From Alistipes sp. Zagget8 (GTDB lineage: Bacteria; Bacteroidota; Bacteroidia; Bacteroidales; Rikenellaceae): a DNA stretch of 64,000 nt. The stretch is from contig MSHJ01000009.1 in the NCBI GenBank assembly GCA_001941065.1, forward strand, positions 1 through 64,000, written 5' to 3'. This document shows, one piece after another, positions 10,772 through 59,878 of this stretch. Positions within the stretch are counted from its first letter, which is position 1. The number at the start of each line of letters is the position of its first letter. Below the pieces are notes generated by a model that did no database searches, had not been told where the DNA came from, and saw only the letters and a program-made list of their open reading frames with translations. Made by a program: the position numbers and the translations under genes.

Positions 10772-11611
10772 TTATCGGACGACCTCCAGTTTTTCGAGTT
10801 TGTCGTCGAGGTCGATTTTGTCGATGATGGTCTTTACAAGCACGTCCATCTCCGAATCGGCCCTGTAATCGGCCGGGCAGACATGGCTCACGCGGTTGTC
10901 GTGAATCAGCGAGGCCATCTCTTTGCGGGCGCCTTTCTGGTCGGGGTTGTAGACCGCGATCGAGTGGCCCCCGGAGTTCTTGACCAGCCGCATGCAGGGG
11001 ATGTCGGTGGTTCCGTCGCCCACGTAGATCATGTGCGTGAACGGCACGGGACGCTCGTTCTCGGGGATGTAACGGTTGACCATCTTCGAATCGAAAACCG
11101 ACTCGACGCCCTTGTTGATCTTGAAGATAAACTGCGTCTTGTTGGTGTAGTTGACCGCCACGGCAGGCCAGTAGGCGATGCCGTCCACGTCGTAAAGGAA
11201 CGAGCAGGCGTAAATCTTACGGAATTCGTGGGCGATCTCCGTGCCTTCGATAATCTCCTTCATCCCCGAAGAGTTGATGTAGTGCAGGATGCGGATACCC
11301 CGCTCGGCGCCGTAGGCGTTGATGCGGGAAAACCACTCCTTGACCCCGGCGAAGAGCGTCACGCGGCGTCCCGAATCCTGAAACGCCTCGCGGCGCAGCG
11401 ACAATCCCTTCGACTTGGCCTCCTGGATCATCCGGGCCATGTACGTCAGAACCATGTCGGCGTCCTGCTCCTCGGCCAGCGTGTTGGCCTCGGTCCAGAA
11501 CTCCTTGTTGCTCTTGCCGACGGCCGGAATGAAATCGTACTCCTGCATATTGCCCGGAGCCAGCGTGCCGTCGAAATCGTAGATGAGTGCTATGGTGAAT
11601 CTGAATTCCAT
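10772..11611 (-). CDS. HAD-superfamily phosphatase
   Basis: 279 aa from ATG 11611. HAD motifs: YDFDGTLAP (motif I, nucleophile Asp), YINSSGMKE (motif II Ser), a Lys in the SKMVN region (motif III) and YVGDGTTDIP (motif IV). A cap domain lies between motifs I and II. The substrate is unknown; HAD enzymes of this size dephosphorylate small molecules. First gene of the minus-strand run (HAD, membrane protein, ABC-like, rdgB, oxidoreductase, folE), driven by the promoter at 11665-11672, whose downstream leader carries a palindrome. Confidence 0.85.
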   Translation of the reverse strand: MEFRFTIALIYDFDGTLAPGNMQEYDFIPAVGKSNKEFWTEANTLAEEQDADMVLTYMARMIQEAKSKGLSLRREAFQDSGRRVTLFAGVKEWFSRINAYGAERGIRILHYINSSGMKEIIEGTEIAHEFRKIYACSFLYDVDGIAYWPAVAVNYTNKTQFIFKINKGVESVFDSKMVNRYIPENERPVPFTHMIYVGDGTTDIPCMRLVKNSGGHSIAVYNPDQKGARKEMASLIHDNRVSHVCPADYRADSEMDVLVKTIIDKIDLDDKLEKLEVVR

Positions 11612-11634
11612 CGGTTTCAAGATTTTGATTCTAA

Positions 11635-11672
11635 CTAATAAAAGGGTCGTTACGACCCCGACACCAAAGATA
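11635..11672 (-). promoter_or_regulatory. HAD promoter -7 element and downstream palindrome (copy A of a two-copy element)
   Basis: On the minus strand TATCTTTG (11672-11665) is followed by GTGTCG, then the dyad GGGTCGTAACGACCC (11658-11644) and TTTTATTA (11643-11636). A possible -33 TTG lies 20 bp upstream. Copy B of this arrangement is at 58706-58736. A hairpin plus T tract here could act as an attenuator, or the dyad could be an operator at about +10. Confidence 0.6.
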
Positions 11673-11684
11673 GGATTTTTTTAC

Positions 11685-11692
11685 TACTTTTG
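11685..11692 (+). promoter_or_regulatory. -7 promoter element for the nitroreductase
   Basis: TACTTTTG lies 28 nt before ATG 11721. This promoter faces away from, and nearly touches, the HAD promoter. Confidence 0.5.
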
Positions 11693-11720: not shown

Positions 11721-12251
11721 ATGGAATTCAAGGAATTGATTGCAAAACGCCGCTCGGTGCGCAAATTCTCCGACCGACCGGTCCCCCGCGAGGTCGTGGA
11801 CCGCATCCTCGCCGAAGCCCTCACGGCCCCTTCGGCCCGCAATACACGTTCGACACGTCTCCTGGTGGTCGACGATCCCGCGCTGGTGGCCCGCATGGCC
11901 GACATGCGCGACTACGGGTCGGGATTCCTGACGGGTGCGCCGCTGGCCATCGTGGTGCTGGGCGACACCGCGTCGAGCGACCTGTGGCGCGAGAACGCCG
12001 CGATCACGGCAACGGTGGTGCAGCTGGCCTGCGTCGACGAGGGGCTGGCATCGTGCTGGGTGCACATCAACGGACGCCCCCGCCGCAAGGACGCTCCCGA
12101 AGGGGAGAAGGCCGCCGATTACCTGCGGACATTCCTACCCATCCCCGACGGCTGTGAACCCCTCTGCGCCATCGCCGCGGGGTATTCGGATTTCACGCCC
12201 GCTCCGCTGCCCGCTGCGGACGACGAGGCGCGAATTATCCGCCTGAAATAG
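11721..12251 (+). CDS. nitroreductase-family FMN-dependent oxidoreductase
   Basis: 176 aa from ATG 11721. The N-terminal motif MEFKELIAKRRSVRKFSDRPV and ALTAPSARNTRSTRLLVVDD form the FMN-binding site of NfsA/NfsB-like proteins. The C-terminal AIAAGYSDFTPAPLP carries the family's GY segment. It probably uses NAD(P)H and FMN to reduce quinones, nitro compounds or similar acceptors. It is divergent from the HAD gene and ends at a shared terminator with polA. Confidence 0.9.
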   Translation: MEFKELIAKRRSVRKFSDRPVPREVVDRILAEALTAPSARNTRSTRLLVVDDPALVARMADMRDYGSGFLTGAPLAIVVLGDTASSDLWRENAAITATVVQLACVDEGLASCWVHINGRPRRKDAPEGEKAADYLRTFLPIPDGCEPLCAIAAGYSDFTPAPLPAADDEARIIRLK

Positions 12252-58705: not shown

Positions 58706-58736
58706 TATCTTTAGTGTCGTAACGACACTTTTATTA
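58706..58736 (+). promoter_or_regulatory. palindromic promoter-proximal element, copy B
   Basis: TATCTTTA (58706-58713), the dyad GTGTCGTAACGACAC (58714-58728) and TTTTATTA (58729-58736). Copy A is at 11635-11672. It lies 112 nt before the mrp ATG and upstream of the second, better mrp promoter. Confidence 0.6.
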
Positions 58737-58771
58737 ATCGGAACGTTTTGCCGGACCGCACGCAGTTCGGT

Positions 58772-58802
58772 TTTGAACCCGTTCCGCTTTTTGCTATCTT
58801 TG
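58772..58802 (+). promoter_or_regulatory. mrp promoter
   Basis: TTTG (58772-58775), 19 bp, TATCTTTG (58795-58802): an exact consensus, 23 nt before ATG 58826. Confidence 0.75.
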
Positions 58803-58825: not shown

Positions 58826-59878
58826 ATGGAAGAAAAAATCAAACACCTCCTTGCGGCGGTCGTCCATCCCGAAACGGGACAGGACATCGTCACGAGCGGA
58901 TTCATCGAACATACGGCGGCCGCAAACGGAAAAGTCACGGTCGTCCTGCGCTTCGCCAAGGCCCGCGACCCGTTCGCGGTGAAGATCAAGAACCAGGCCG
59001 AAGCCCTTTTGCGCGAGGCGTTTCCGGACGCCGAAGTGCTGGTTGTCATCAAGGAAGGCGGGGCCGCACCGCGTCCCGAACCTAAGCAGAACACCACTAC
59101 GGGCGGCATCGCCAAGGTGATTGCCGTGGCTTCGGGCAAGGGCGGGGTAGGCAAGTCCACCGTCACGGCCAACCTGGCCGTTGCGCTGCGGAACATGGGT
59201 TTCCGCGTGGGGATTCTCGACGCCGACATTTACGGACCTTCGCAGCCCAAGATGTTCGGCGTGGAAGGCTATGTCCCCGAAGCCGTCGCCGAGGACGGGG
59301 TGGACCGCATCGTGCCGGCCGAATCGATGGACATCCGGCTGATGTCGATCGGCTTCTTCATCAAACCCACCGACGCCCTGCTGTGGCGCGGGGCCATGGC
59401 CGTCAGCGCCCTGAAGCAGATGATCCACCAGACCCGGTGGGGTACGCTGGATTTTCTGCTGGCAGACCTGCCTCCCGGCACGGGCGACGTGCACCTCTCG
59501 ATCATCGGGGAGTTGAAGATAGACGCCGCGGTGATCGTCTCGACGCCCCAGCAGATTGCCGTGGCCGATGTCGTGCGCGGCGTGGAGATGTTCCGCAACG
59601 AAAATGTCAACATCCCCGTGGCGGGCATCATCGAGAACATGGCGTGGTTCACCCCCGCCGAGCTGCCCGAAAACCGCTACTACATCTTCGGACACGGCGG
59701 AGCCCGCGCCTTCGCCGCGCAGAGCGGCGTGGATTTCCTGGGCGAAATACCCATCGTACAGTCGATTATGGAAGGCGGGGAGGAGGGACGCCCCGCAGCA
59801 GGGATCGATCCGCGCGTCGAGGAGAACTACCGGGAAATCGCCGAAAAGATCGTTTCAAAAGTGATGAAAAACGGTTGA
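58826..59878 (+). CDS. mrp: Mrp/NBP35-family Fe-S cluster carrier ATPase
   Basis: 350 aa from ATG 58826. An N-terminal MIP18/DUF59-like domain (LLAAVVHPETGQDIVTSGFIEH) precedes the P-loop domain with the deviant Walker A ASGKGGVGKSTVTANLA near 112, DADIYGPSQPKMFG, LADLPPGTGDVHLS and ISTP-like VSTPQQIAVADVVRG. It binds and transfers Fe-S clusters. The C-terminal CxxC of E. coli ApbC is absent; that place reads MAWFTPAELPENRYYIFG. I believe this is usual in Bacteroidetes, so cluster ligands must differ. It lies beside the candidate origin. Confidence 0.93.
   Translation: MEEKIKHLLAAVVHPETGQDIVTSGFIEHTAAANGKVTVVLRFAKARDPFAVKIKNQAEALLREAFPDAEVLVVIKEGGAAPRPEPKQNTTTGGIAKVIAVASGKGGVGKSTVTANLAVALRNMGFRVGILDADIYGPSQPKMFGVEGYVPEAVAEDGVDRIVPAESMDIRLMSIGFFIKPTDALLWRGAMAVSALKQMIHQTRWGTLDFLLADLPPGTGDVHLSIIGELKIDAAVIVSTPQQIAVADVVRGVEMFRNENVNIPVAGIIENMAWFTPAELPENRYYIFGHGGARAFAAQSGVDFLGEIPIVQSIMEGGEEGRPAAGIDPRVEENYREIAEKIVSKVMKNG

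Follow-up and report, generated by a model that had tools for sequence, protein, structure and literature searches.

The stretch of Alistipes sp. Zagget8 DNA analysed here (the window; 64,000 nt, C9:1-64000 of a 3.5 Mb Alistipes genome estimated to be 88% complete) carries two short palindromes, one ahead of a HAD-like phosphatase gene (site 1) and one ahead of mrp (site 2), and it raises the question of why such similar palindromes should stand at two promoters. The earlier note had described them as promoter-proximal and as differing by a compensatory base-pair change, and had suggested a common regulator or RNA attenuator of the HAD/ABC/rdgB run and of mrp. Both palindromes were found as described, each directly 3' of the -7 box of a gene (Table 1). 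Based on comparisons within this genome and with related genomes, we propose a different origin: the palindromes most probably belong to a dispersed repeat of mobile type, 87-90 nt long, of which they form the left end; it carries a promoter and would be spreading within Alistipes with the -7 box as its landing site.

Table 1. Features of the two palindrome sites in the window, with the basis of each assignment.
Feature	Positions	Strand	Basis or remark
Native -7 box TATCTTTG of the HAD promoter	11665-11672	minus	3' edge of the box is the insertion point; relatives without the insert have the box joined directly to the 5' UTR, e.g. L142, TTATCTTTG followed by AGAATCAAAA
Short form, 32 nt	11633-11664	minus	GTGTCG, palindrome and TTTTATTAGTT, without body or second box; weak covariance-model match, E 6.3e-4
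Palindrome GGGTCGTAACGACCC of site 1	11644-11658	minus	sequence and genome-wide matches
HAD-like phosphatase gene, downstream of site 1	10772-11611	minus	Pfam PF12710 HAD, E 6.2e-10
Native mrp -7 box, now TATCTTTA (last base altered)	58706-58713	plus	comparison with relatives
Full unit, 89 nt: palindrome, body, promoter	58714-58802	plus	covariance model, E 1.5e-23; matches 99/99 model positions, this copy being itself part of the model's alignment
Palindrome GTGTCGTAACGACAC, left end of the unit, site 2	58714-58728	plus	sequence, genome matches and covariation
TTTTG, putative unit-borne -33 element	58771-58775	plus	19 nt upstream of the right-hand -7 box
TATCTTTG, which ends the unit on the right and is the -7 box nearest to mrp	58795-58802	plus	sequence and model match
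mrp/ApbC-type Fe-S carrier ATPase gene	58826-59878	plus	Pfam PF10609, E 1.4e-85, and PF01883, E 2.5e-9

On its strand, site 1 reads TATCTTTG, GTGTCG (11659-11664), GGGTCGTAACGACCC and TTTTATTA (11636-11643), and site 2 reads TATCTTTA, GTGTCGTAACGACAC and TTTTATTA (58729-58736). The divergent nitroreductase gene (11721-12251) has its own TACTTTTG box at 11685-11692. This box and that of the HAD promoter are about 12 bp apart, and site 1 thus adjoins a divergent promoter pair. With one mismatch or fewer, GTCGTAACGAC is found 6 times in the window, where 1.17 matches are expected, and none of 100 shuffles reaches 6. The search of the whole genome and of relatives that the earlier note had called for found the palindrome recurring upstream of genes in both; in Zagget8, exact GNGTCGTWACGACNC occurs at 29 places, and its reversed control at none. 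The flanks of the other palindrome copies align over about 90 nt, which makes the palindrome the left end of a dispersed unit of 87-90 nt, with the layout TAnCTTTG, then GTGTCGTAACGACAC TTTTATnAGTCGGAAnGTTTTGCCGnACCGnATGCAATTCGGTTTTGnACCCnTCCGnCTTTTTnn TATCTTTG. A covariance model built from 29 copies finds 62 at E<0.01 in the whole genome, grouped in about 48 arrays of one to three copies, head to tail, with neighbours mostly 89-90 nt apart. The dispersed copies at C5:210623 and C14:43082 have the same sequence all the way from palindrome core to right-hand TATCTTTG, and their outer flanks are unrelated at once; such an abrupt stop indicates that the unit has defined ends. These ends are not terminal inverted repeats, since the left end GTGTCGTAAC and the right end CTTTTTCGTATCTTTG are not inverted copies of each other and the palindrome is present at the left only.

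Short forms were observed in which an intact or half-decayed palindrome, with no body, comes right after the gene's own -7 box (L274 3577, minus; L275 1381, plus; L276 3953, minus; C10:218152; window 11633-11664), and the genes behind them are kdgK-like, transporter, MaoC-like, rpe and HAD. Site 1 and the other short forms are presumably what deletions have left of full units. In the disA tandem (G000 C5:235314-235413, L072), the middle -7 box is lost and CTTTTTTGGTGCCG replaces CTTTTT-nn-TATCTTTGGTGCCG, as if by a deletion between the two T-runs. In the ftsY array (G000 C17, L039), an internal stretch reads N.

The corresponding empty sites were sought in one to a few relatives for each gene. 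At mrp, the 5' UTR of relatives (L112, L117-L123) follows immediately on ATGCGTTATCTTTG or ATACGTTATCTTTG, whereas in the window the unit separates the box from the leader; at the HAD locus, relatives read as L142 (Table 1) or similarly, and the window has 32 added bases exactly at the junction. A joined query of 15 gene starts, compared with two relatives, placed the insertion exactly 3' of the native TAnnTTTG also at ftsY, dxs, rpiB, ridA, coaD, ksgA and rsmE. Together with mrp and HAD (in its short form), the sequence comparison establishes the exact insertion point at nine promoters. At engB, disA, murA and M16, the native box has been lost or replaced and the insertion is unreadable. The ridA and rpiB sites are also occupied in A. 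montrealensis kh20 (G070), the nearest named relative among the genomes compared, which has about 15 units, and are empty in G145, which suggests that insertions differ in age; there are also insertions that A. montrealensis does not share. With TAnnTTTG flanking both sides of the units, a target-site duplication was considered: left and right boxes were equal in 45 of 59 cases at a first pass, which looked significant, yet the box variants were uncorrelated after removal of the arrays with element-like left flanks (10 of 16 equal against 8.4 expected, p 0.36). The signal was gone once possible tandem remnants were excluded, and a duplication is not supported.

The right end of the unit has the complete Bacteroidota promoter consensus (TTG, 18-20 nt, TAnnTTTG), and an ORF starts on the same strand downstream of all 46 assessable arrays, at a distance of 4-133 nt (median 23). 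The gene-proximal box is a perfect TAnnTTTG in 38 of the 46 arrays, against 25 of 46 for the leftmost box (Fisher p 0.0065), and TTG lies 18-20 nt upstream in 37 of these 38. Leftmost boxes that are more often imperfect would be expected if they had become dispensable, and at mrp the native left box reads TATCTTTA. The right-end promoter is probably the one in use. Based on our reading of the translations, the genes downstream include murA, dxs, trpS, ffh, ftsY, engB, disA, coaD, rpiB, ridA, ksgA, rsmE, mrp, an M16 peptidase and a pyrophosphatase, which appear to be mixed housekeeping genes with no common theme and not a regulon. As in a mobile promoter, a similar promoter stands before unrelated genes and is absent at the orthologues in relatives.

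The compensatory change noticed between the two sites proved to be real and general. The 33 distinct left ends compared come from Zagget8 and about a dozen congeners; in this set each of the six pairs covaries, with at least one change that affects both of its sides. Of the cells, 94.4% pair, against 77.8% when shuffled (0/500), and the covariation score is 0.529 against 0.206 when shuffled (0/500), with slid partners scoring 0.20 or less. In units picked solely by their box-to-box spacing, all six pairs are intact in 50 of 63. Several palindrome versions coexist in one genome, so the outer positions keep pairing and not letters. Imperfect palindromes could also undergo template-directed correction, which would help to preserve the symmetry. 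The end hairpin is the sole common structure found by RNAalifold in 29 units, DNA folds of units from several species have nothing in common except this hairpin, and searches of five loci against Rfam, up to E 1, were negative. In Flavobacterium, the -7 box occupies -12 to -5 (PMC9723704); by analogy, the palindrome would cover positions from about -4 to +11, across the start site of the adjoining promoter. A transcript from that promoter would then be without the 5' arm, which argues against an attenuator hairpin in it and favours a role of the palindrome as a DNA hairpin or cruciform.

A regulatory function of the palindrome has to be weighed against these data. If a dimeric regulator bound the palindrome as an operator, over the transcription start of the genes in a regulon, this would agree with the perfect two-fold symmetry, with the conserved core CRTAAYG and with the position over the expected start site, and the solo forms at HAD and rpe do put the palindrome in the gene's own start region. 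But the targets would be about 48 functionally mixed genes, whose promoters in relatives are without the palindrome, the outer arm letters vary freely within one genome while pairing is kept, and the conserved unit reaches 70 nt past the palindrome. We consider an operator improbable, and membership of a regulon was rejected on the empty orthologous promoters and the mixed genes. It is very improbable that the palindrome acts in the leaders of the downstream genes as an RNA attenuator or as a hairpin that stabilises the 5' end. Although the 6-bp stem with its 3-nt loop is followed by TTTTA in Zagget8, and transcripts from farther upstream would include the hairpin, transcription from the adjoining promoter is expected to begin within the palindrome, and the gene-proximal promoter is situated downstream. 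Other species lack the T-run, Rfam had no match in the five loci searched, and no other conserved structure was found. Of the earlier reading, what stands is that the palindromes are promoter-proximal, related by descent, recurrent upstream of genes and kept symmetrical by compensatory change. Its regulator or attenuator shared by two sites does not, as the units precede about 48 unrelated genes, close relatives have none at the same promoters, and sites 1 and 2 are separate insertions.

The family is patchily distributed. The core pattern TANCTTTGNNNNCRTAAYG has 10-36 matches in 12 of 180 Alistipes genomes, 1-4 in 33 and none in 135, with the control near zero, and among 393 genomes of the order the Zagget8 genome alone has more than 2; the matches outside Alistipes are background only. 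In other Alistipes species, unit bodies and palindromes differ (CCGTCGTAACGACGG, GCGTCATAATGACGC, CCATCGTAACGATGG and others), while the unit length is kept at 86-91 nt and the right ends keep CTTTTT-nn-TATCTTTG or near it. Viral contigs gave no match for the Zagget8 palindrome or the G099-type palindrome, and plasmids and phages gave no blastn match. A phage origin through the G138-type palindrome was rejected, its three viral-contig matches all lying inside a phage coding gene and being attributable to chance. Literature searches with the sequences and for similar elements in Alistipes returned nothing relevant, and no description of the unit was found in the searchable literature. A second dispersed family, the AAATAAATTTG type, was observed in the same genus. 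Its units of about 73-74 nt run from GCTTCGCC, directly after a TATCTTTG box, through CGGCAATGCTCAAATAAATTTGGCATTGC to CTCGCTTATTCG and a further TATCTTTG. Of 180 Alistipes genomes, 77 have matches to this type, one of them as many as 48. The AAATAAATTTG type is unrelated to the palindrome family, shares its box-to-box layout and is found stacked with its units (L001 1600-1700; L282 and L288 of G168; L199). An insert upstream of dxs in G145 (L255) is a related but diverged form.

How would such units be copied? A REP or REPIN-type element moved by a Y1 transposase (RAYT or IS200/IS605-like) would also be a short, extragenic, high-copy palindrome with a single-sided hairpin. This explanation is strongly disfavoured: PF01797 was found in none of 13 carrier genomes while the same profile matches in control genomes, and REPs lie mostly downstream of genes (PMC3733652), whereas the Alistipes units lie upstream and carry a promoter. 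A spread with no dedicated enzyme, which rivals only the copying step of the promoter-carrying repeat, is a serious alternative, though the less likely one. The palindrome on the 3' side of a TAnnTTTG box would provoke template switching, or ectopic copying, from one to another of the many identical boxes: a nascent strand ending in TATCTTTG would re-anneal at another promoter, copy from box to box and return. The box-to-box boundaries, uniform orientation and stacking, the absence of a Y1 transposase, and the second, unrelated family with the same layout and stacked with the first are all consistent with it. However, eight bases are very little homology for ectopic copying, no hybrid of the two families was present in the fetched loci, and the patchy set of carriers fits a gained factor better.

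The promoter-carrying repeat may work like other repeats that bring promoters to their neighbours. The Correia repeat enclosed elements (CREE) of Neisseria are described in PMC2649163 as short, dispersed, non-coding repeats that supply neighbouring genes with promoters and differ between genomes. They resemble the Alistipes unit in this promoter supply, but have terminal inverted repeats and possible promoters at either end, whereas the Alistipes unit has neither, keeps one orientation and lands at the -7 box. BrickBuilt, a MITE of Porphyromonas gingivalis, is likewise presented in PMC4596501 as intergenic, multicopy and containing tandem repeats in a Bacteroidota host, with promoter activity where the Alistipes unit has a promoter consensus. 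By that description, it consists of a 23-nt minisatellite in inverted-repeat ends, lies 49-591 nt from genes and is bidirectional, in contrast to a unit of 87-90 nt without inverted-repeat ends directly before start codons. An assignment to the Correia elements or to MITEs was rejected on the ends of the unit, which are not inverted repeats. Putative mobile promoters are near-identical promoter sequences copied before unrelated genes. This term and "promoter propagation" occur in PMC8049555. The Alistipes unit shares with them the similar promoters before unrelated genes, and differs in having defined ends, a covarying palindrome and a precise landing site.

In the promoter-carrying repeat that we propose, a new copy would be placed directly 3' of the -7 box (TAnnTTTG) of an existing promoter, in the orientation of that promoter, and the right end of the full unit carries a -33 (TTTG) and a -7 (TATCTTTG) element. 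The gene would keep a complete adjacent promoter, and the old one, now about 90 bp farther, would become dispensable. Additional copies stack head to tail. The palindrome would probably act in copying, as a DNA hairpin or cruciform and not as a regulator site, and the copying enzyme would act in trans and not be of the Y1 type. More tentatively, it is possible that there is a class of mobile units, with at least two unrelated families in Alistipes, which land on the sigma-factor -7 box and each bring a -33/-7 pair, with which the gene would still have a working promoter after every insertion; their movement could depend on a recombinase not yet described, or on copying where promoters are open.

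Mobile DNA that lands in promoters would mostly damage or hijack them, whereas this unit lands at one exact base behind the -7 box with a promoter capable of taking over. Its presence at dozens of essential genes would thereby become understandable, and promoter replacement would be a routine event in a common gut genus. With pairs of empty and filled sites at hand, the mechanism can be tested directly, and the covariation of the end palindrome offers a clear handle for finding the mover.
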